Below are positions 1 through 12,119 of a stretch of DNA of 64,000 nt, piece by piece (position 1 is the stretch's first letter; each line of letters opens with the position of its first letter). Position numbers and translations under genes: made by a program. The notes under the pieces are model-generated. The model did not search any database. It saw only the letters and a list, made by a program, of their open reading frames with translations, and was not told the origin of the DNA. The DNA lies in contig NZ_CANMQS010000002.1 in the NCBI RefSeq assembly GCF_947500075.1, positions 682,001 to 746,000 of the forward strand, in the 5' to 3' direction. The DNA comes from an uncultured Sulfitobacter sp. Its GTDB lineage: Bacteria; Pseudomonadota; Alphaproteobacteria; Rhodobacterales; Rhodobacteraceae.

Positions 1-1804
1 AGGCGATCATCGGGTAGACGTCCAGCCGCAGCCGGTCGCTGTTCCCGTCTGCCAGCAAGTGGCGCACACCCGACCGGCGTTTGCCGCTTTTCAAAGCGAT
101 CGCCACAAGGCTGCGGGCTTCTTCGCGCAGGGGGCTGCGCAGAAGATCGACGTGCATCCGCAGGTTGCTGGCGTTGTTCACCGAGATATAGGCGCTGACA
201 TCCCCAAAGACCTGCGCGATGGAGTATTCATCGGTCACCAGAATGGAATTGTCACCCAGCGACTGGGCAAGGGCCTGCAACAGCTGTCTGTCCGTAGACG
301 GCCCATGATCGACAATGGTGGCAGCGCGGTTGGCGCGCATTGGTGCCATGTTCGGCATGCTGAAATTTGCTGCACCTGCTGAACGGATGTTGCGTTTCTC
401 AAACACATGGGCCGCTTCACGGTGCTGAACGAACAATTCATCCGATCCCGCAACGCTCTCCGCCGTTCCCAGAAACAGCAGCGCATCCGGACGCATGGCA
501 TAATGGAACCGCCCCAACACCTTGCGTTGCAGCGCATGTCCGAAGTAAATCAACAGGTTACGGCAGCACAGAAGGTCAACCCGCTGGAATGGCGGATCCT
601 GACAGACGTTGTGGTTTGAAAACAGGATCGCGGAGCGCAAAGGTTCAATCACCCGCACGGAATCCGCTGATCGCACCAGGTATTTGTCCGCCAGCGCTTT
701 GGGAATGTCGTTGAGCGCAGAGAGGTTGTATTGCCCCTGCCGCGCCACCCGCAGCGCGGCGTTGTCGATGTCGGTGGCGAATATCTGGACCTTGGACTTG
801 AACTCCGCCGGGATGCATTCCAGCGCTTCGCACAGGGCCATGGCGATGGAATAGACTTCCTCCCCCGTGGCGCAGCCGGCCACCCAGACCCGCAGCTGCG
901 TGCTGCCCTGACGCTCAACCAGTTTCGGCAGGATCGCCTTGAGTTGATCGAACGCCTCCTTGTCGCGGAAGAACCGGGTGACAGAGATCAGCAGATCCTT
1001 GAACAGCGCATCCACAGCCGAGGGGTTGTGGCGGCAGAATTCCGTGTATTCTTCTTCGCTTTCAATGTTCAGCGCGACCATGCGGCGGCGAATGCGACGT
1101 CCGATGGTGGTTTGCTTGTAGTCGCGAAAATCCACGCGGGTGTGGGCCAGCAGGATCTGCAACAGGTCCGAGGTCGGCGTATCGGGCAGATTGGTCGACC
1201 GGAATTCCTTGAAATCACGCGCGGCGTTCAGGATCTTGGTCAGGTGGCTGCCGATCTCTGGCGGGCTGAGCACCAGATCAACGCAGCCGGTCTGAACGGC
1301 GGATTGTGGCATCCCGTCGTATTTCGCGCTTTCCACGTCCTGTACGATTGTGATGCCCCCGTGTTCCCGGATCGCCTGAATGCCATAGGCGCCATCGCTG
1401 CCGGTGCCGGACAGGATGATCCCCATCGCCTTGTCGCCGTGTTCCTGCGCAAGCGAGGTCAGGAACCGGTCAACGGATGGTTTGGGGCTGGCCACCTCGG
1501 TGCTGGGGTCAACCAGCCGCAGGCGGCCTTTTTCATAAAGCACATCCGCCTTGGGCGGCGTGATGTAGATGACGTTGCGCTCCGGCTTTATGCCGTCTCT
1601 CACATCGCGGACTTCCAGTTTGGTATCGCGCGACACCAGTGCAGTCATCAGGCTGTCATGATGCGGGGACATGTGCTGCACCACGACGTAGGACACCGGT
1701 GCATCCGGTGGCAGTGCTGCGACAAGCGACCGAATGGCCTCCAGACCACCGGCAGACGAACCGATGCCGATAATCGTCAGATTGTCAGTATCTGAATCTG
1801 GCAT
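1..1804 (-). CDS. CheB-CheR-PAS fusion chemotaxis protein, 3' part off the window
   Basis: The minus frame stays open from ATG at 1804 to the window edge, about 601 codons. Residues 1-190 form a CheB methylesterase domain without a receiver domain; its catalytic triad is visible as Ser17 (GSSAGG), His44 (VVQHMSP) and Asp137 (GTGSDG). Next comes a CheR methyltransferase domain with the SAM-binding stretch WVAGCATGEEVYSIAM and CRNLLIYF. After about residue 500 the sequence turns PAS-like. Family knowledge: such fusions usually continue into PAS, coiled-coil and histidine-kinase or GGDEF modules, which would lie left of base 1. The product should be cytoplasmic and add and remove methyl groups on receptors or PAS outputs. 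It is separate from the complete che operon at 5.3-12.1 kb. The identity is firm for the visible part; the C-terminal output is unknown. Confidence 0.93.
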   Translation of the reverse strand, partial: MPDSDTDNLTIIGIGSSAGGLEAIRSLVAALPPDAPVSYVVVQHMSPHHDSLMTALVSRDTKLEVRDVRDGIKPERNVIYITPPKADVLYEKGRLRLVDPSTEVASPKPSVDRFLTSLAQEHGDKAMGIILSGTGSDGAYGIQAIREHGGITIVQDVESAKYDGMPQSAVQTGCVDLVLSPPEIGSHLTKILNAARDFKEFRSTNLPDTPTSDLLQILLAHTRVDFRDYKQTTIGRRIRRRMVALNIESEEEYTEFCRHNPSAVDALFKDLLISVTRFFRDKEAFDQLKAILPKLVERQGSTQLRVWVAGCATGEEVYSIAMALCEALECIPAEFKSKVQIFATDIDNAALRVARQGQYNLSALNDIPKALADKYLVRSADSVRVIEPLRSAILFSNHNVCQDPPFQRVDLLCCRNLLIYFGHALQRKVLGRFHYAMRPDALLFLGTAESVAGSDELFVQHREAAHVFEKRNIRSAGAANFSMPNMAPMRANRAATIVDHGPSTDRQLLQALAQSLGDNSILVTDEYSIAQVFGDVSAYISVNNASNLRMHVDLLRSPLREEARSLVAIALKSGKRRSGVRHLLADGNSDRLRLDVYPMIA

Positions 1805-2036
1805 ATGCCCCCCATGAATTGGTGCTACCATAACTTGAAAACAGGCCAAGACAATACCGCTTATATTGTGGGCCATTGAGCCTGATGCAAGCCTGCCGCG
1901 CCGCGGCGCACTGCGGTCCTTTCCATTCTCTATTAAAACACCTTTTCAATTGGTTAACCGATCGTCATTCACGGATTATCAACCTCTCTTTTCTATAGAT
2001 TGCGCAAGACAAGACAGTTTTTGGGAAGATTGCACT

Positions 2037-2825: not shown

Positions 2826-5012
2826 TCAGAAGATCTCTTCGCCAGTGGTGATTGAAATGTGATCCAACCGATAAATCGTGCCGACTTCGACCTCAATCAC
2901 GACAATGTCCACATCGTTGGCGGTCAATGTCCAGCCCGTCCCGGAACGGTAGAGGCCAAGCTCCACCTCACCGTCGACACCGGGTTCGCTGTCAATCTGC
3001 GGTGCGCCCGTGAATCCGTCCAGCTGAATGACGTCCCGGTTGATCTGGAAACCTCTGATCGCATCGACACCAGTGTCTTCGCTATTGAAAACAAAGACAT
3101 CACGGCCACGGCTGCCCACAAGGATGTCTGATCCGTCTTCGCCATACAACGTGTCGGCACCCCGGCCGCCGATCAGATGATCGTCGCCGTCGCCCCCCAT
3201 CATCACATCGTTGCCGCGTCCGCCAAGCAGACGGTCATTGCCGTCCCCGCCGAACATCGTGTCACCGGCCTGACCGCCGTCCAGCGTATCATCGCCCGTG
3301 CCACCGATCAGCAGGTCCTTCTGCCAGCCGCCCGCAAGGTGGTCATCGCCTGAGCCACCATCCAGCGTATCATACCCGGCAGCGCCGGTGAGCGTGTCGT
3401 TGCCCGCCTGACCCTTGATTTCATCATCGCCACGCCATCCACGGATGAAGTCATCACCGCCCCCGGCCAGTGTCAGACCGCCGCGGATGTCCACGCGGAA
3501 GGCATCGTCACCCCCCATCGTAAACAACGCTTCCCAATAGGCCTGCGCGTTCTCGGCAACCTGCTCACCGACCTTGAGGCCGTTGAGGTTTCCGTCCTGG
3601 ATGTGGATGCCGCCATAGAGCCGCGAAATGCCGGCTTCTTCGGCGGCTTCTGTAAGGGTGTCCCACTGCAACACGACCGGTGGATCGGTTTCGCCAAATT
3701 CTTCAAAGGCAAGCTCGGATGTCACATATTGTCCCATCAGATCAACACCTTCGACCGTATCCAGGTCGTAGTTGCCCAATGTCACACCGTCATAAAACGC
3801 ATCCGACCCGGTGAAGGCCGCCAGTGTCTTTGCCGCCGCCATGGAGAAGGTGGAATGCCCGGAGACATATTCAGGGAACGGTGGTGTGACGAATGTCACG
3901 TTCTGATAGGGCTGCCAGAACTGCCCAAGGATGGTCTCCGTCCCGCGGTTGGGACCGGCCCAGGCGTCGATCTCCTGATCGTAATAGAGGTCGCGAATGG
4001 CTGACTGGGGGCGCACATAATCGTGGTGGTATTTCGCCTCCCAGGTCGCGATCCCTGCGTCAAAGATCGCAGCGTTCATCGCAAAGAACATCTTGGCATC
4101 CATGTCGAGGTTGTGACCATCGCGCAGTGCAATATCCTGGGCGATCTGGTTCCAGTGTCCGGGAGGGGATTCCGTGCGCGGACCGTCGGCCCAATACTCT
4201 GCGATGACCTTTTGTTCATTGGTCAAACCGGAAGACATTTCAACTACTTCCGCGATTTGATCCCGGTAGGCCTGATCGTTCGTGGTGACATTGCCCGCCC
4301 CATCGACATATTCTGAAAAATCCCCGAGCTGCGGCGGGGTGTCGGGCCGGAACATGGTATTGTCATCCATCGCAAAGCTGTCCACGCCGCCCCAATGCGG
4401 CGTCAGCGCGATCTGATCGACATAGCTGGACGGATCATTGGGATCGATGATCGGCACGCCCGCTTCGTTGGTGACCGTGCCCGTGGGCACGCGCAGTGGC
4501 TGCCAGTGATTGGGATCGAAATCCATACCCCCCGGTGCCCCGTCTGATCCCGGCTCCGGATCGTTGATCGGCGTATATCCGGTTGTATCAGCGTACCCGT
4601 TTTCAGAGTTGGACCCGTCATTCTGGCGCGCCTCAAACACGTTCCGCGCGGCAAGTGTGCCAAGTCCTGCGGGGTTTGACGGGTCGCTGTTGGCGTCTGC
4701 GGGGTCATACCCAAGCGCCGCCATGAAGTCGTCAAAGATGTGCTGCTGGGCCGGGTAAAGCGCGCTGAGTGCTGCATAGGCGGCAAAGCTGACCGCTTCG
4801 GCCTTGTTGGCTTCTGTGTTGGCAAGCGGCGTCTCGATCTGGGAATAATGCCCGCTGGCATCGGCATCGAATGCAGCCCAGGCATCATAGACAGCGGCGC
4901 TGACCAGATGCAGTTGATAGGTGGTTGCCGTGGGCAGGGCGGACCCCTCACGGATCGCTTCCAAATTGATTTCGTTCCATTGCGCGACAATGGACTGTTG
5001 ATAAGCTGGCAT
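2826..5012 (-). CDS. secreted vanadium-dependent haloperoxidase-like protein with RTX repeats
   Basis: 728 aa from ATG at 5012 (GGAG nine bases upstream; an in-frame TTG at 5027 is less likely). Residues 1-500 match the vanadium haloperoxidase / PAP2 phosphatase fold, with the vanadate pocket in order: Lys327-x6-Arg334-Pro, Ser384-Gly-His386 and Arg464-x5-His470. From about residue 516 there are about 14 glycine/aspartate nonapeptides of the RTX calcium-binding type, then a hydrophobic C-terminal tail. There is no N-terminal signal, so export is probably by a type I system, which is not encoded here. Family role: peroxide-driven oxidation of halides. A phosphatase activity cannot be excluded from sequence alone. 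A Pro usually found just before Ser-Gly-His is Val here. The gene is monocistronic. Confidence 0.88.
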   Translation of the reverse strand: MPAYQQSIVAQWNEINLEAIREGSALPTATTYQLHLVSAAVYDAWAAFDADASGHYSQIETPLANTEANKAEAVSFAAYAALSALYPAQQHIFDDFMAALGYDPADANSDPSNPAGLGTLAARNVFEARQNDGSNSENGYADTTGYTPINDPEPGSDGAPGGMDFDPNHWQPLRVPTGTVTNEAGVPIIDPNDPSSYVDQIALTPHWGGVDSFAMDDNTMFRPDTPPQLGDFSEYVDGAGNVTTNDQAYRDQIAEVVEMSSGLTNEQKVIAEYWADGPRTESPPGHWNQIAQDIALRDGHNLDMDAKMFFAMNAAIFDAGIATWEAKYHHDYVRPQSAIRDLYYDQEIDAWAGPNRGTETILGQFWQPYQNVTFVTPPFPEYVSGHSTFSMAAAKTLAAFTGSDAFYDGVTLGNYDLDTVEGVDLMGQYVTSELAFEEFGETDPPVVLQWDTLTEAAEEAGISRLYGGIHIQDGNLNGLKVGEQVAENAQAYWEALFTMGGDDAFRVDIRGGLTLAGGGDDFIRGWRGDDEIKGQAGNDTLTGAAGYDTLDGGSGDDHLAGGWQKDLLIGGTGDDTLDGGQAGDTMFGGDGNDRLLGGRGNDVMMGGDGDDHLIGGRGADTLYGEDGSDILVGSRGRDVFVFNSEDTGVDAIRGFQINRDVIQLDGFTGAPQIDSEPGVDGEVELGLYRSGTGWTLTANDVDIVVIEVEVGTIYRLDHISITTGEEIF

Positions 5013-5349
5013 CGGAAAAATCTCCAAAAAAATGTGATCGTTTTAATGACTTCAGGAATATCACGCATTCGTGAGGCCACCAATTGAAATAAGGCAAATT
5101 CGCCACATTTTGTAACCTATGGGGGAGTAATAAATTCTGTTTCACCGGCAGATGGAAACGATGGCCAAAGCCTGGGCGGCATCGTTGCCAATTCGTGATC
5201 AAAGACCGATTTTTGGGTGAATTCATCACCTGACTTAAGTGGTCGTTCATCCAAACCATGCCACAAAACGGGATGATAGATTCTGTCCACTGCCGCGCGT
5301 CGTCCGCCACCTCGTTCCGTTTAACCGGACTATGCGGAAGGTGGGCGTG
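5013..5349. other. divergent intergenic region between haloperoxidase gene and cheB
   Basis: About 340 bases, more AT-rich than the flanks near 5040-5140. It must hold the promoters for the minus-strand haloperoxidase and the plus-strand cheB-cheD. It contains a TTAACC half site near 5320, but no second half at CtrA spacing. I see no convincing gene or stable hairpin. Confidence 0.5.
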
Positions 5350-6432
5350 ATGTCTGTGGACGCCCGCGGGGCTGCGGCCCAGAAGAAGGTCGTGATCGTA
5401 GACGATTCACGGGCCTTGCGGGCCTGGCTGCGTGTCGTCATCGAAGAAGACCCCCGTCTTTGCGTCGTGGGAGAGGCTGCAACCGCGCTCGAAGCGCGTG
5501 AGGTGATCAAACAGACAGTGCCCGATGTCCTGACGCTTGATATTGAAATGCCGGGCATGGATGGGCTTGAATTTCTGGCGCGGCTGATGCGGCTGCGCCC
5601 GATGCCGGTGGTGATGATTTCCGGTTCCACCCGGAACCATTCCGAGGCAACGGTCAGGGCGTTGTCGCTGGGCGCGGTGGATTACATCCTGAAACCCGCG
5701 ACTGCCTATGATGAAGCGGCCCGCCAACTGATTGCCCGGCGGGTGTTCTCCGCAGCGTGCAGTACGGTTCAACTGAGCGCGGTGGATCGCACGCCCAAAG
5801 CGGCGGCCGCCAGACCCCGTAGTTCTGGACCGATGCCGCTGGTCTTGATCGGCGCGTCCACCGGCGGGGTGGCGGCGCTTGAGACGGTTTTGGGCAGCCT
5901 GGACACAAGCGGCCCGCCTGTGGTGGTGGTCCAGCATATGCCGGGTCCCTTTCTGGTCAGCTTTTCCAGACAGCTTGACCGCCATCTGGCGCAGGATGTG
6001 CGGCTGGTCTCCACCGATGAGGTGCTTGAACCCGGTCAGATCCGGCTTGCCCCTGCGGAAGGGGCCCATACCCAGATCATCCGCCGTGGCGGGCAGTGGT
6101 CCTGCCGCTTTTCTCCGGCGGAGGAAAGCGCGCTTCATTGCCCCTCTGTGGATGCGCTGTATGCCTCTGCTGCCCCCTATAGTGCTGATATCATTGCGGT
6201 GATCCTGACCGGCCTTGGACAGGACGGGGCCGAAGGCATGGCAACCCTGTCCACAAATGGCGCGATGACATTTGGGCAGGATGAAGCCTCCAGCGTTGTC
6301 TACGGCATGCCACGCGCCGCTTTCGAACGGGGCGCTGTGAAACGCCAGCTGCCGGTCACCCAAATCGGTGCCGCCGTGAATGAAGCGGCCGTCACCTGGG
6401 CCCGCGCCAGCAGGATTGGAGCACACAAATGA
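5350..6432 (+). CDS. cheB: CheB chemotaxis response regulator, protein-glutamate methylesterase
   Basis: An N-terminal receiver domain (VDDSRALRAW; phospho-acceptor Asp64 in TLDIEMPGMDG) is joined by a linker to the methylesterase domain. The triad is Ser169 (GASTGG), His195 (VVQHMPG) and Asp291 (GLGQDGAEGM). The 360-aa length is normal. I chose ATG 5350, which has GGAAGG about 7 bases upstream; ATG 5332 is an alternative. The enzyme demethylates and deamidates receptor glutamates in adaptation. It overlaps cheD by ATGA. It is transcribed toward, not with, the rest of the che operon, so its dosage is set by a separate promoter. Confidence 0.96.
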   Translation: MSVDARGAAAQKKVVIVDDSRALRAWLRVVIEEDPRLCVVGEAATALEAREVIKQTVPDVLTLDIEMPGMDGLEFLARLMRLRPMPVVMISGSTRNHSEATVRALSLGAVDYILKPATAYDEAARQLIARRVFSAACSTVQLSAVDRTPKAAAARPRSSGPMPLVLIGASTGGVAALETVLGSLDTSGPPVVVVQHMPGPFLVSFSRQLDRHLAQDVRLVSTDEVLEPGQIRLAPAEGAHTQIIRRGGQWSCRFSPAEESALHCPSVDALYASAAPYSADIIAVILTGLGQDGAEGMATLSTNGAMTFGQDEASSVVYGMPRAAFERGAVKRQLPVTQIGAAVNEAAVTWARASRIGAHK

Positions 6433-6938
6433 ACCGGCGGGCTGTGATCACGCAAGGGGAGCATCTGGTGTCCACTGACCCGGATCTGACGATTTCCACC
6501 TTGCTGGGGTCCTGTGTGGCCTGCTGTCTGTGGGATGCGGAGATGTCCGTGGGCGGGATGAACCACATGCTGCTGACCCGGAATCAGTCAACTGCGGATG
6601 CTTTTGCGGGCGTCAATGCGATGGAATTGCTGATCAACGACCTCCTGAAGCAGGGCGCGCGGCGGTCGCATTTGCAGGCCAAGGCTTTTGGCGGTGCGCA
6701 AATGGTGACCGGGCTGTCCGACATTGGTTCTGTGAACAGTGCCTTTATCCTGGATTTTCTCAAGGTTGAGGGCATTCCGTGTCTGTCCCAATCTCTGGGC
6801 GGTGCATCCGCGCGCCATCTGCTGTTCAAACCAACGGATGGAACCGTGAAAATGAAAATGCAGAAGGACGCCGCCCTGGCGGAACTTGCACCGCCTGCAC
6901 CAACACCGCCTGTTGGAAACGGGTTGGAGTTGTTCTGA
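6429..6938 (+). CDS. cheD: CheD chemoreceptor glutamine deamidase
   Basis: 169 aa, translationally coupled to cheB through ATGA. The catalytic Cys29 lies in GSCVACC and His46 in GGMNHMLL; a Thr/Ser at 23-24 can complete the triad. FGGAQMVTG and IPCLSQSLGGASARHLLF are typical of CheD. Family role: deamidates receptor Gln to Glu and, in some bacteria, binds CheC-type phosphatases. Unusual: a Pro/Ala-rich C-terminal linker ends in a GLELF carboxyl tail that resembles the DIDLF tail of the small protein encoded at 7093-7485. Confidence 0.94.
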   Translation: MNRRAVITQGEHLVSTDPDLTISTLLGSCVACCLWDAEMSVGGMNHMLLTRNQSTADAFAGVNAMELLINDLLKQGARRSHLQAKAFGGAQMVTGLSDIGSVNSAFILDFLKVEGIPCLSQSLGGASARHLLFKPTDGTVKMKMQKDAALAELAPPAPTPPVGNGLELF

Positions 6939-7092: not shown

Positions 7093-7485
7093 TCAAAACA
7101 GATCGATGTCACCTGTTGTGATCGACGGCGCCTCCGCGCCCACGGGTTCCGCCTGCGCAAAGAGCAGGGCGCGCGTGCGTTCAAGCCGGATGCGCTGAGA
7201 GAGCTTGACGATCTGACGCCCCGGTATGCGTGTTGCGGCCACATCCAGTTGGCTCAAATGGAGGGTCAGCAAGGCGAGATCTTCGGTATATTGTCTGAGG
7301 AAATCAAGGTTTTGTAGGCGTGCCATCCGGTCGGGCCCGGCATTGGAAGGCTGCGCCCCCCGTTCATCTGCAATCGCATGCTCAACTTCATGGGCAAGCG
7401 ACGCAAGGCCGTCCAGATGCGTTGACATGCGGTGCAGGACGCCATCAAGGGTTTGATCAGGTGGGAACGCAGGTTCAGCCGACAT
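7093..7485 (-). CDS. small chemotaxis-operon protein, candidate CheT-like CheY-P phosphatase
   Basis: 130 aa; its start overlaps the stop of the upstream cheY2 gene (TGATG), so it is the last gene of the che operon. It is helical, with an acidic-amphipathic stretch RMARLQNLDFLRQYTEDLAL that carries Asp61-x3-Gln65. A DXXXQ helix is the catalytic signature of CheZ-type phosphatases and of the small Sinorhizobium meliloti protein CheT, which also ends an alphaproteobacterial che operon. The protein ends in DIDLF. No cheZ, cheC or cheX is visible in the window. Function is inferred from motif and context; overall similarity to CheT could not be scored. Confidence 0.62.
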   Translation of the reverse strand: MSAEPAFPPDQTLDGVLHRMSTHLDGLASLAHEVEHAIADERGAQPSNAGPDRMARLQNLDFLRQYTEDLALLTLHLSQLDVAATRIPGRQIVKLSQRIRLERTRALLFAQAEPVGAEAPSITTGDIDLF

Positions 7486-7871
7486 CAGAGCTTGCCAACG
7501 ACCGCCTCAATACAATTGCGCAGCTGATCCGGCTGGAACGGTTTCTTGAGATAATTGTTCATGCCCAGCTTCTTGCCGTGATCAATGATCTGCTGTTCCG
7601 CCCGCCCGGTGATCAGAACAAACCCGACCCCCTTGGTCTGCGGTGTGCCGCGCAGATAGTGCAAGAGCTGCAAGCCATCCATCTCAGGCATGTTATAGTC
7701 AGAGATCACCAGATGCGCGGGTTGCTTTGCCAGCCCTTGCAACGCCTCCTTGCCATTTTCGGCAGTGGCCACATTGCGCACCCCAAACGCATCCAGCGCT
7801 TGTGTGATCAAGCCCCGGCTGGTGGACATATCGTCTACAACCATGATGCGGATTTGGTCTCGCAATGCCAT
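7485..7871 (-). CDS. cheY: CheY-like single-domain response regulator (second copy)
   Basis: 128 aa from ATG 7871, which has AGGAAGAT upstream. It is a receiver domain only: acidic pair VVDDMS, phospho-acceptor Asp in LVISDYNMPEMDG, Thr in VLITGRA and Lys in YLKKPFQP. It sits 55 bases after cheR and overlaps the CheT-like gene. In alphaproteobacteria with two CheYs, one usually drives the motor and the other acts as a phosphate sink. The direct coupling to a DXXXQ protein suggests this copy is the phosphatase's substrate, but that is inference. Confidence 0.93.
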   Translation of the reverse strand: MALRDQIRIMVVDDMSTSRGLITQALDAFGVRNVATAENGKEALQGLAKQPAHLVISDYNMPEMDGLQLLHYLRGTPQTKGVGFVLITGRAEQQIIDHGKKLGMNNYLKKPFQPDQLRNCIEAVVGKL

Positions 7872-7926: not shown

Positions 7927-8778
7927 TTATGGCGGGGTCGGGGCGTAAGTGGTGGGGCCAACGCAGTCGAACTTATACGTCGATGGGTCTGATATCCGTT
8001 CGGAGTGGCCAAGAAACAGCATCCCATCGGGCTTCAGCGTCTTGTGAAAACGTGGCCAGAGGGCGGTTTGCGTCTGCGCATCGAAATAGATCACCACATT
8101 GCGGCACATGATCAGATCGAAAGGCCGTGTCATCGGCCATGGTTTGAGCAGGTTCAGCTCGTTAAAGCGGATCATCCGGCGCACGAGGTCTTTGGTGGTG
8201 TATTCCTGTTCCCCCTCCGCACCGGCGCCTGCTTCAAAATATCGGGCGCGCAGCGGATCGGGCACGCCGCCCATCAACCGCTCGGCATAGGTGCCTGCGC
8301 GTGCAAAGCTGACGACCTCCGGGTCAATATCAGTCGCCAGAATGCGCAGGTCGAGATCCGCCACCTCGGGGGCGTGTTCAAGCAGGGTCATCACAGCAGA
8401 AACCGCTTCCTGCCCATTTGAACATCCCGCAGACCAGATGCGCATCTGGCCGCCCGCGCGCAGATGCGGCAACCGGGTATCGAGCATCTTCTTCAGCGTC
8501 TCGAAATGATGCTTCTCACGAAAGAAATGCGACACATTCGTGGTCAGGGCCGAGATCAGATGCCGGCGTTCCTGCACCCCGTCGTCAGATCCGATCAGCG
8601 TGCAATAATCAGGAAAACTGTCGATCCCAAGCGCCCTGAGGCGGTGGCGCAGCCGCGATTGGATCATCGTCGCTTTTTCAGCAACGAGCGTCAGACCGCT
8701 TTCACGATAGGCAAGGTCCGAAATCGCGCGAAAACTCGCATCATCCAGCTGCATATTGACCTGGGCGGGGCTGTTCAT
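7927..8778 (-). CDS. cheR: CheR chemoreceptor methyltransferase
   Basis: 283 aa. It has an N-terminal helical CheR_N domain, then the Rossmann methyltransferase with IWSAGCSNGQEAVSAVM, DLRILATDIDPEVV and the CRNVVIYF motif. It uses SAM to methylate receptor glutamates. Its ATG lies within the cheW stop (ATGA overlap), giving translational coupling. The motif after the SAM loop reads GQEAVS rather than the usual EEPYS; GQE is a known family variant, while AV is less common. It is the second CheR activity of the window beside the fusion protein. Confidence 0.95.
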   Translation of the reverse strand: MNSPAQVNMQLDDASFRAISDLAYRESGLTLVAEKATMIQSRLRHRLRALGIDSFPDYCTLIGSDDGVQERRHLISALTTNVSHFFREKHHFETLKKMLDTRLPHLRAGGQMRIWSAGCSNGQEAVSAVMTLLEHAPEVADLDLRILATDIDPEVVSFARAGTYAERLMGGVPDPLRARYFEAGAGAEGEQEYTTKDLVRRMIRFNELNLLKPWPMTRPFDLIMCRNVVIYFDAQTQTALWPRFHKTLKPDGMLFLGHSERISDPSTYKFDCVGPTTYAPTPP

Positions 8779-9233
8779 GCGGCGGTACTCTCGGGCACAT
8801 CAATGGTGGCGGGCAGATCAAGCACGCGGATCATCCGTTCCTCGATCAGCGTCAGCGCGCTGACCACGCCCGCTGCCGCGGCAGAGGTCAGTTCAGGCGG
8901 CGGTTGCAGGTCGTCCGAGGTGAGCGCCACGATGTCCGAAACAGCATCCACCAACAGACCGGTCATGATGTCTTCGTGTTTCACCACGATGATCACGTTG
9001 CGGTCGCTTTGTTCCCGCGGGGGCAGGCCCAGCCGCTCTGCTAGATCCATCACCGGCAAGACCGTACCACGCAGGTTGATGACACCCTTCATGTAGCGCG
9101 GGGCGTGGGGCAGGGGCGTGGCATGGGTCCATCCCCGGATTTCCCGTACCGACATGATATCAAGGGAGTATTCCTGCTCCGCGAGGCGGAAGGTCAGAAG
9201 CTCGATCGTGGCGGGTTTGGTATCATCGCTCAT
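8775..9233 (-). CDS. cheW: CheW chemotaxis coupling protein
   Basis: 152 aa, a single CheW domain: TFRLAEQEYSLDIMSVREI at the start, HAPRYMKGVINLRGTVLPVM, and VIVVKHEDIMTGLLVDAVSDI. It scaffolds receptors to CheA. It is coupled on both sides by four-base ATGA overlaps with cheA and cheR. It is the only CheW gene in the window and no chemoreceptor gene lies near it, so receptors must be encoded elsewhere. Confidence 0.96.
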   Translation of the reverse strand: MSDDTKPATIELLTFRLAEQEYSLDIMSVREIRGWTHATPLPHAPRYMKGVINLRGTVLPVMDLAERLGLPPREQSDRNVIIVVKHEDIMTGLLVDAVSDIVALTSDDLQPPPELTSAAAAGVVSALTLIEERMIRVLDLPATIDVPESTAA

Positions 9234-11470
9234 GCGGTGGCTCCTGCGGTCTGAATGGCGGGTGCAGCACCGGTCTGGGGCATGCTGCCGCTGCTGTTGA
9301 TGATGTCGGATGGATCAAGGATCAGCGCGATCTGCCCATCGCCCAGGATGGTTGCGGCGGCGATGCCTGACGCGCGGTAGAAACTGTCATCAAGGCCCTT
9401 GATCACGACCTGTCGCTGGTCGAGGATATTGTCGATCAACAGCGCGGCCCGCCCGCCGTCTTCGAGCGCAATCAACAGGACAACCGCATCCCCGAACCCG
9501 TCAAGCGGGTCGCGGTATCCCATGGCGGCCCCCAGATCAAAGAGGGGGACAAAGCCGCTGCGCACTTCAATGACGTAATTGCCGGGGCGTACCATCTCAA
9601 CATCGCTGTCCTGCAAGGTCAGCGTTTCAATCACGAGGTTGAGCGGCAGGACCAGCGTTTCGCCCGCGACATCGACCACCATGCCGTCAAGCACCGCAAG
9701 CGTCAGCGGCAGCGAGATCGAGAACGAAGTGCCCTCGCCCGGATTGGAGGTGGTGGTGATCCGCCCGCCAAGGGCTTGAATGGCCGTGCGCACCACATCC
9801 ATACCAACCCCGCGACCGGACAGATCCGACACGACGGTGGCCGTGGAAAAACCCGGCAGGAACAGCAGGTTGTCGATCTCGCTGTCGCTCAATTGTGAAT
9901 CCGGTGGGATCAAACCCTTGTCGATGGCGATTTGCAGGACCTTCGGCCGGTTGATCCCGGATCCGTCATCCGACACTTCGATCACCACCCGGCCCGAACG
10001 ATGCGCGGCCGTCAGGTTTACAGACCCCTGCGGCGGCTTGCCTGCGGCAATGCGGTCTTCCCTGCTTTCCAGCCCGTGATCGACGGCATTGCGGATCATA
10101 TGGGTGAGCGGGTCTGCCAACCGTTCAATCACGGTCTTATCCACTTCGGTGGATTCCCCGAACGTATGCAGGCGCACGTCCTTGCCCACGGCAGAGGAGG
10201 CTTCGCGCACGATACGCGACATGCGTTGGAACAGCGATTTCACGGGCTGCGCGCGGATCATCATCACCGAATCCTGAATGTCACGGGTCAGGCGCTGAAA
10301 CTCTTCCAGCCCGTTCATGGCATCCGAATGCGGCGACAGACCGGACCGCTCAAGGCTCTGACTCAGCATCGCCTGATTGATCACCAACTCCCCAACCAGG
10401 TTCACCAACCGCTCAATCCGGTCCAGATCGACGCGGACAACGGACTTCGCGGCAGCGGCGGGTCCACCGCCTGCCGCCGGTTTTGTCGCGCCCGCTGCGG
10501 GTTTCGGGGCGGGGTCAGCAGGGGCGGGGTCAGCGGGGGCCGGTTCTTGCGGGGGCGGCGGCGGCGCTTCGTCTTCCACTACAGGCGGAGGGGCGGCGTC
10601 GATCGAGGCGGCGGGCGGTGTTTCTGGGGCGGCCACGGGGGCCTCCGCGCCCTCCTCGGTGATGGTCAGCTGGCAGAGCCCATCGACAAACTCGAAGATG
10701 GAAGCAATCTCGCTCTGCTCCACATCCGCATCCAGGGTGATTTTCCAACTCAGATGAGGGATTTCCGGTGTCAGCCCGGCAAGGTCGGGAACATTTGAGG
10801 TGTCACAGACAACTGTACCCTGTCCCAGCTCCATCAGGTTGCGCAGCAGCAGGGCAGGTTCATTGCCCGTCTCAAACAGCTCTGCCGTGGGCGTGAAGGT
10901 GATCACGAACGCCCCGGCGGAAGGGCCGGGCATGGGCGGAGGCGGTGGCAGATCGGATATGTCAAACGCAGGCGCGTCATCTGATCCCGCCTCCCCAAGA
11001 TCAAGGTCCAGCGAGAGACCCATCGGCTGGAAATCGATATCCTCTTCGGGTGCGTCGTCCTCATCTCCGGCGCTGTCGGGCAGAAAGGCGTCGAGAGCGA
11101 CCAGCAGCTCAGCCGTTTTGTCATCTGGCATCGCATCGCCATCGCGGCTGATGCGCACAAGATCAGACAGATGATCCGCCGCCTGAAAAAAGACCTTCAT
11201 CGCCTCCGGTGTCACGTCGAAGCGACCGGCGCGGACCTCATCCAGAACCGTTTCATACCGGTGTGCAAAACGCACCAGATCCTCAAGACCAAAGGCACCG
11301 GCGCCGCCCTTGATGGAATGCACGGCGCGAAAGACGATGTTGATCGTCTCCCCATCGCCCTCACCGTCGTCCATGGTTTGCAAGCTGTCCTGGAGCGCTT
11401 CCAGCAGTTCTTCGCATTCGATGAAGAAGGAAGCGCGGATTTCCGCCATTGGATCTATGTCGCTGCTCAT
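9230..11470 (-). CDS. cheA: CheA chemotaxis histidine kinase
   Basis: 746 aa from ATG 11470, which is preceded by GAGGAG. Domain order: Hpt with phospho-His51 (AVHSIKGGAGAFG); a divergent CheY/CheB-binding region; a Pro/Ala linker around residues 310-360; dimerisation helices (VNLVGELVINQAMLSQS); an HATPase domain with HMIRNAVDHGLE, DDGSGI and GRGVGMDVV; and a C-terminal CheW-like regulatory domain. It autophosphorylates from ATP and passes phosphate to the two CheYs and CheB. It follows cheY by 10 bases and overlaps cheW. Confidence 0.97.
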   Translation of the reverse strand: MSSDIDPMAEIRASFFIECEELLEALQDSLQTMDDGEGDGETINIVFRAVHSIKGGAGAFGLEDLVRFAHRYETVLDEVRAGRFDVTPEAMKVFFQAADHLSDLVRISRDGDAMPDDKTAELLVALDAFLPDSAGDEDDAPEEDIDFQPMGLSLDLDLGEAGSDDAPAFDISDLPPPPPMPGPSAGAFVITFTPTAELFETGNEPALLLRNLMELGQGTVVCDTSNVPDLAGLTPEIPHLSWKITLDADVEQSEIASIFEFVDGLCQLTITEEGAEAPVAAPETPPAASIDAAPPPVVEDEAPPPPPQEPAPADPAPADPAPKPAAGATKPAAGGGPAAAAKSVVRVDLDRIERLVNLVGELVINQAMLSQSLERSGLSPHSDAMNGLEEFQRLTRDIQDSVMMIRAQPVKSLFQRMSRIVREASSAVGKDVRLHTFGESTEVDKTVIERLADPLTHMIRNAVDHGLESREDRIAAGKPPQGSVNLTAAHRSGRVVIEVSDDGSGINRPKVLQIAIDKGLIPPDSQLSDSEIDNLLFLPGFSTATVVSDLSGRGVGMDVVRTAIQALGGRITTTSNPGEGTSFSISLPLTLAVLDGMVVDVAGETLVLPLNLVIETLTLQDSDVEMVRPGNYVIEVRSGFVPLFDLGAAMGYRDPLDGFGDAVVLLIALEDGGRAALLIDNILDQRQVVIKGLDDSFYRASGIAAATILGDGQIALILDPSDIINSSGSMPQTGAAPAIQTAGATA

Positions 11471-11480
11471 CTGATGCTCC

Positions 11481-11846
11481 TCAGCCTGCGACCATATGCA
11501 GGGCTTTGACCAGTTTTTCCGGATCGAAAGGTTTGACGATCCACCCGGTCGCACCAGCGGTGCGGGCGCGCTGTTTGAGTTCCGGTGCCGCTTCGGTTGT
11601 CAGCACCAGAATGGGCGTGGCACGATGCTGGTCCTGATCGCGGACGGCATCAATGAAGCCGAACCCATCCATGCGGGGCATGTTGATGTCGGTGATGATC
11701 GCGTCCGGCTCCAGCCCTTCCAGCACCTCGATCCCGTGCACACCATCATCTGCGGTGTGTACAGTGAAGCCGGCCGGCAGAAGTGCCATCTTGATCATGT
11801 CGCGCATTGTGCGGCTGTCATCGACCGCAAGAACTTCCAAGGTCAT
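11481..11846 (-). CDS. cheY: CheY response regulator (first copy)
   Basis: 121-aa receiver domain with LAVDDSRTMRDMI, phospho-acceptor Asp in AIITDINMPRMDG, Thr in VLTTEAA and Lys in WIVKPFDPEKL. It starts immediately after the stop of the STAS gene (TAG directly followed by ATG) and precedes cheA by 10 bases. It is a typical motor or phosphate-sink CheY; sequence alone does not say which of the two copies binds FliM. Confidence 0.95.
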   Translation of the reverse strand: MTLEVLAVDDSRTMRDMIKMALLPAGFTVHTADDGVHGIEVLEGLEPDAIITDINMPRMDGFGFIDAVRDQDQHRATPILVLTTEAAPELKQRARTAGATGWIVKPFDPEKLVKALHMVAG

Positions 11847-12119
11847 CTACACCCCCTCCGCCAGTGTTTCGGGTGTCAGCCCCATGGCCCCCATTTGCGC
11901 CAGCACGCTGTCGGGCGTGTTGATGATGTCCAACTGGTGCCCTTGTTCGTGCAGCGTTCGCGCGGCTGATACACAGACTTGCAGGCACAGCGCCCCGATC
12001 TGCGAAACCTCCGCCAGATCAAGCACCATATCCCCACCGGGATGGGCCACAAAAGCCGCGTGCAGGTCAGACGCCGCCGTCAGGTCGAGTTTGCCCTTCG
12101 GGCTGAGTACATCAGCCAT
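11847..12119 (-). CDS. STAS-domain protein heading the che operon
   Basis: 90 aa with an anti-sigma-factor-antagonist (STAS) fold: a leading beta strand (LSPKGKLDLTAASDLHAAF), MVLDLAEVSQIGALCLQV and a C-terminal alpha-beta unit ending LAQMGAMGLTPETL. In SpoIIAA-like proteins the loop reads DSSG with a phosphorylated Ser; here it is SQIGALC, with no Ser at that position, so regulation by a serine kinase is unlikely. Family role: protein-protein switch or scaffold. It is the first gene of the operon that continues with cheY-cheA-cheW-cheR-cheY2. Confidence 0.82.
   Translation of the reverse strand: MADVLSPKGKLDLTAASDLHAAFVAHPGGDMVLDLAEVSQIGALCLQVCVSAARTLHEQGHQLDIINTPDSVLAQMGAMGLTPETLAEGV

Follow-up and report, generated by a model that had tools for sequence, protein, structure and literature searches.

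Many alphaproteobacteria have no CheZ, so that the ending of the CheY signal in these bacteria has been an open question. CheT is a kind of protein described in 2024, and the original CheT study reportedly names CheY1, the phosphate sink, as its substrate. In rhizobia, CheY2 carries the signal and CheY1 serves as phosphate sink (PMC8429497). CheT of S. meliloti is reported to speed dephosphorylation, to have a single substrate among its two CheY proteins and to form a complex with CheR (PMC12654446). The S. meliloti operon (locus L123) runs STAS, cheY1, cheA, cheW, cheR, cheB, cheY2, cheD and finally a gene annotated 'hypothetical protein' (L123:9561-9935), whose product scored 225.5 bits against NF047973, the NCBIfam family for CheT, i.e., above the curated equivalog cut-off of 200 bits.

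We analyzed a window of 64,000 nucleotides from an uncultured Sulfitobacter sp., for which the original prediction had placed a candidate CheT-type CheY-P phosphatase at 7093..7485. The product of this cheT-like gene is, judged from its sequence, a CheT homologue, and is probably the missing off-switch enzyme for the CheY signal, i.e., a putative phosphatase. The CheT reading is right as homology and, probably, as mechanism; a CheD-like C-terminal tail is the new element here, and the part worth following.

Gene order and kinship with CheT

The predicted frame of 130 residues containing D61-F-L-R-Q65 was found at 7093..7485 on the minus strand, with its ATG at 7485-7483 and its stop at 7095-7093; read from the first base, the plus strand has two stops, and the minus strand is open. 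It is the last gene of a minus-strand operon, following genes for a CheS-like STAS protein (11847..12119; STAS_2, 1.3e-11; 30% identity over 70 residues to the STAS protein of the S. meliloti operon), cheY1 (11481..11846; 61% to S. meliloti CheY1), cheA (9230..11470; 47% to S. meliloti CheA), cheW (8775..9233; 48% to S. meliloti CheW), cheR (7927..8778; closest solved relatives 1af7 and 1bc5) and cheY2 (7485..7871; Response_reg, 41% to S. meliloti CheY2, by orthology a motor-type CheY). This order agrees with the description of a small terminal gene in a che operon with two CheYs and a STAS protein. The cheT start codon overlaps the stop codon of cheY2 by one base (TGATG, 7483..7487, minus strand), which makes the proposed translational coupling of the two genes plausible. 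Genes for CheB, with receiver and methylesterase (5350..6432), and CheD (6429..6938) lie together in a convergent operon on the plus strand. Elsewhere in the window, a second adaptation protein, in which Pfam finds CheB methylesterase and CheR joined in one chain but no receiver, runs off the edge (2-1876, minus strand), and a vanadium-chloroperoxidase-like protein fused to RTX calcium-binding repeats (2826-5027, minus strand) lies between the che gene groups.

NF047973 was the only NCBIfam family matched by the window protein (21.4 bits, E 2e-4), and at E ≤ 1 the cheT-like gene was its only place in the whole genome. The score is 21 bits against a cut-off of 200, a value that we take to mark how close to the rhizobial protein a relative must be to receive its name, and we therefore regard the window protein as a diverged homologue rather than as that equivalog. 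Of the 68 aligned relatives, 32 were also matched by NF047973 at E ≤ 0.1 (best 1.9e-9); each of the 13 other NCBIfam families matched one member of that set. The reverse comparison agreed: a profile of the window's family, built with no rhizobial sequence, gave S. meliloti CheT 51.2 bits, and the next score after the window's own among the 21 proteins compared (from S. meliloti, E. coli and the window's Che set) was 2.6 bits. With hhalign, the family and S. meliloti CheT aligned with a probability of 96.3% (E 1.9e-9). The CheT-type identity that had been proposed is therefore borne out as homology by sequence, operon order and the invariant motif described below.

Position is also conserved, since 66 of 70 relatives lie within 400 bases after cheY2. 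The other four differ: locus L033 has the S. meliloti order cheB-cheY2-cheD-cheT; in L048 the match follows cheR, and the stretch fetched contains no CheY2 match; around L022 the only che genes are cheD and cheB, on the opposite strand; and the stretch fetched for L024 is free of che genes. The named close relatives of the window protein belong to Sulfitobacter and Roseobacter.

The HMM comparison that had been suggested, against CheT and CheZ, matched CheT, and found no detectable sequence relation to CheZ: Pfam CheZ gave no match at E ≤ 10, hhalign to CheZ a probability of 0.8%, and E. coli CheZ scored -0.3 bits against the family CheT profile. Pfam CheC (PF04509) did not match the protein either. 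The original prediction had also noted no cheZ, cheC or cheX in the window; our whole-genome searches, which covered CheZ and CheC, extend this for these two, with no CheZ above the cut-off (best score 14.4 bits, inside a chemoreceptor) and no CheC at E ≤ 1.

Beyond the family, NF047973 gave one genome at E ≤ 0.001 among 289 genomes of the class, none of them above the cut-off, and one at E ≤ 0.01 among 10 genomes of one order. The larger family profile A2 (68 rows), run on 385 genomes of the class, matched 17 at E ≤ 0.01, and the window's own family accounts for five of these. In four further families of the class, A2 pointed to loci that are likely relatives of CheT (L100:1345-1746, minus strand; L091:1501-1773, L087:1501-1839 and L089:1501-1857, plus strand), which stand beside cheD and other che genes and carry QxxDxxxQ; L100 has the lowest score of the four (E 0.008) and ends in DVTFF. 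Three weaker A2 matches that we examined (L092, L093 and L095) lie in unrelated long frames and were not used; L094, L096-L099, L101 and L102 were left out of this examination. On plasmid records of Ruegeria sp. TM1040, Phaeobacter inhibens and Leisingera thetidis, cheT is annotated 'hypothetical protein'. CheB of these three che clusters (L124:8006-8941, L125:8002-8943 and L126:8010-8954, respectively) seems to lack the receiver: in L124 Pfam gives the methylesterase and no other domain, and the N-termini of the other two resemble that of L124.

The QxxDxxxQ motif and its predicted setting

The DXXXQ motif on which the original prediction rested is not above chance in a single sequence. Among 20,000 shuffles of the window protein 47.3% contained DXXXQ, and we dropped the lone motif as evidence; the longer form, QxxDxxxQ, appeared in 3.3%. 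In the window protein it comprises Q58, D61 and Q65, with codons at 7291..7314 on the minus strand (D61-F-L-R-Q65 at 7305-7291), and is the predicted catalytic motif.

What raises the motif above chance is its conservation across the family. By 'window's family' we mean the sampled group that, from the names of the relatives, appears to be GTDB Rhodobacteraceae (NCBI: Roseobacteraceae). Searching 248 genomes of this family with the single protein gave 11 matches, and searching with an 11-row alignment (A1) gave 83, of which 70 were aligned and 13 examined later. Q58, D61 and Q65 are invariant in all 70 aligned relatives, so that the conservation of D61 and Q65 in orthologues, the absence of which was to count against the phosphatase reading, is complete in this set. 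In the 68-row alignment, which omits L072 and L073 of the 70 (each with an early stop), these three are the sole invariant columns, at a mean column identity of 21%. In a 20-row alignment of the window protein and 19 named relatives, the motif is again invariant, among 16 invariant columns. Among the 13 genomes fetched later, 11 have QxxDxxxQ directly after cheY2; two matches with no CheY2 in the fetched stretch, G177 and G182, are probably false.

Since a profile favors its own motif, we made a control based on gene order instead. A cheY2 match was present in 99 of the 248 family genomes, and 19 of these had no A1 match (E ≤ 0.01). At 14 of the 19 loci, an open reading frame starting at the cheY2 stop (-31 to +13 bases) carried QxxDxxxQ. 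Of the other five, one is cut off upstream of its cheY2 stop by the end of the stretch that was fetched. In the remaining four this stretch holds no cheR, cheB or cheD; their CheY matches are 39-43%, and one of the four, G061, has a motif-bearing frame that we left out of the count. Among uncut loci with cheR and cheY2 that A1 had missed, the figure is therefore 14/14, a criterion that was chosen after the loci had been viewed; one of the 14, G075, was later recovered by A2.

These results bear on the possibility that DXXXQ arose by chance in an unrelated small helical protein. The frequency of the short motif in shuffles and the weak CheT score of the single sequence are what such a coincidence would produce, but it would account neither for invariance in 70/70 relatives, nor for the motif at every uncut cheR-cheY2 locus missed by A1, nor for the profile match to S. 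meliloti CheT, and the family evidence makes it very unlikely indeed. The QxxDxxxQ gene appears instead as the usual neighbor after cheY2 in this family (66/70 relatives, and a further 11/13 and 14/19 loci).

An AlphaFold2 model from 20 sequences (mean pLDDT 81.5, pTM 0.68) has long helices at 13-43 and 51-78 besides two short ones, and its end is of low confidence. D61 and Q65 both fall on helix 51-78, as had been predicted for a single DXXXQ helix. On a helical wheel drawn with the motif residues left out, D61, Q65 and Q58 point 135, 175 and 165 degrees away from the hydrophobic face, respectively, and this position opposite the hydrophobic face suggests that all three are exposed. Foldseek with the model gave no match at E ≤ 0.001, CheZ included, and VIA rows were only middling; these fold searches say little for or against a CheZ-like hairpin. 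The A2 profile hit 22 distinct solved chains at E ≤ 10. Most of them are coiled coils, fragments of spike proteins or helical proteins made by design, with no chemotaxis protein among them; we take these hits, the best of which was keratin (1.8e-4), as compositional.

Candidate mechanism and substrate

We consider it quite probable that roseobacter CheT is a phosphatase built on a QxxDxxxQ hairpin, with CheY1~P as a likelier substrate than CheY2~P, and docked by its tail to a partner in the receptor array. In the second helix of the hairpin, Q58, D61 and Q65 would all point to the same side. By analogy with the way in which CheZ and CheT are thought to work, D61 would hold the receiver, and Q65 would place a water molecule for attack on the CheY aspartyl phosphate. 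The flexible GDIDLF peptide would then dock the enzyme to an array partner, probably one that it has in common with CheD.

A different role is suggested by the reported complex of S. meliloti CheT with CheR (PMC12654446), and by a tail conserved in the manner of a docking peptide: the QxxDxxxQ face might bind a receiver or CheR for scaffolding only, making the protein an adaptor without phosphatase activity. We consider this improbable, because catalysis better explains why Q, D and Q never vary in an alignment whose columns average 21% identity, and because the characterized homologue is reported to speed dephosphorylation.

As to the substrate of the putative phosphatase, the original prediction had pointed to CheY2 on the basis of coupling. 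This assignment is not supported, because cheT follows cheD both in S. meliloti and in L033, so that the coupling to cheY2 is a local arrangement. The CheY pair of the window is orthologous to the rhizobial pair (61% for CheY1, 41% for CheY2), and by sequence its CheY1 is the clear orthologue of S. meliloti CheY1, reportedly the substrate of CheT. CheY1, an orthologue of the rhizobial phosphate sink, is therefore our first candidate, and by that analogy a more likely substrate than CheY2. That a CheT homologue acts here on CheY2~P, the motor regulator, is a variant of the same explanation, and the odds of the two are not exclusive. The overlap of the cheT start codon with the cheY2 stop and the position of 66/70 relatives within 400 bases after cheY2 speak for this variant, but the gene order in S. 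meliloti and L033 speaks against it, as does the action of rhizobial CheT on one CheY, reportedly CheY1; we regard it as rather unlikely. The restriction to one CheY is described for the rhizobial protein (PMC12654446).

A C-terminal tail in CheT and CheD, and comparison with known systems

The window CheT ends in GDIDLF (codons 7096..7113, minus strand), a putative docking peptide, and the window CheD ends in NGLELF (6918..6938 with its stop, plus strand), which matches the tail pattern; the two like peptides are encoded by different codons. In the window protein and its 19 Sulfitobacter and Roseobacter relatives, DLF is invariant (20/20) after a variable linker. Among the 70 family members, 53 CheT proteins end in F, and 10 others have a W-type variant instead; among the last seven, L048 has two residues after LF and six have no comparable end. 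The W-type ends (for example DIWL, DDLWL and DDDIWM) include L047, L051, L023, L016 and L040; in L016, L023 and L047, CheD keeps ELF though the CheT end is W-type.

The CheD tail is conserved as well. Of 48 complete CheD frames from the window and related loci, 35 end in [VIL][DET]LF and 45 in a looser form; among the three misses, L017 and L022 look like wrong frames and one ends in NDIMLF. In a search of the phylum, CheD was present in 72 of 150 genomes, and of the best 30 of these 72 loci 14 had the tail, judged by eye with one residue allowed after F; the rest of the 30 were mostly short CheDs without an extension. In three roseobacter records (L124-L126), CheT has no tail and CheD has one. 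In the genome, the tail pattern followed by a stop occurred at three places, i.e., CheD, CheT and one where the codon is not a stop, and CheD and CheT are thus the only C-termini in the genome that match the pattern searched. As a reversed control pattern occurred at eight places, the pattern counts by which genes it marks, not by enrichment.

Chemoreceptors tether CheR by a pentapeptide whose second residue is W and whose fifth is F (PMC7390727), and one of six receptor places in the genome ends in GWEEF. None of the 70 CheT tails of the window's family fits the CheR consensus -x-[HFYW]-x(2)-[HFYW], and position 2 is aliphatic or P in 54 of them; the rhizobial tail, DFEAF, does fit. P. aeruginosa McpA is kept from binding CheR by a valine in the second position, and the role of the conserved McpA tails is called unclear (PMC7184735). 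The 0/70 fit and the McpA valine weaken a reading of the tail as a CheR pentapeptide. The boldest reading would be that CheD and CheT share a partner that is not the classical CheR site. In a comparison of the CheR beta-subdomain with the loss of the CheT tail, the clade L073, L080 and L124-L126 differs, and the tail-less L069 and L071 do not.

We propose, tentatively and with some doubt, that CheT and CheD have a docking peptide in common, x-[VIL]-[DE]-L-F, and that with it both would bind the same partner in the receptor array, either jointly or in competition. This partner might be CheB, a CheY receiver or, although the second residue is changed, CheR. The motif may also be that of the conserved, as yet unexplained valine-type tail in McpA-like receptors. 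If this is true, signal termination by CheT and receptor deamidation by CheD would be coupled by a tether unlike the tryptophan-type CheR pentapeptide. Through the common tail, a connection between the ending of the signal and the adaptation of receptors can be put to the test, and the exact residues Q58, D61 and Q65, together with the tail, are now available for mutation. The literature passages searched, including those of PMC13401364, PMC2577667 and PMC2829493, contain no description of a CheD or CheT tail, which is not a claim that it is unpublished.

Apart from the aliphatic-[DE]-L-F terminal peptide that the two have in common in the window, CheD is unlike CheT, scoring -1.3 bits against the CheT profile; CheD has a deamidase fold. 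E. coli CheZ resembles the window protein in its DXXXQ motif and in a gene that adjoins cheY, but it is 214 residues long rather than 130, lacks a Q at the third place ahead of its catalytic D, and shows no detectable sequence relation. CheC, CheX and FliY, which are also CheY-P phosphatases, have a motif and fold other than those of the window protein. The closest system is S. meliloti CheT. It is of similar size (124 against 130 residues), homologous over about 96 of its 124 residues, carries the same LQxxDxxxQ (LQGIDLAVQ) and a C-terminal G-D-x-x-x-F tail, and is encoded at the end of a STAS-cheY1-cheA-cheW-cheR-...-cheY2 operon whose order is largely kept. The differences are an identity of 27% (alignment A5), the placement of the window's cheB and cheD in a separate convergent operon, and the tail itself, GDFEAF in S. 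meliloti fitting the CheR pentapeptide consensus, whereas GDIDLF in the window does not.
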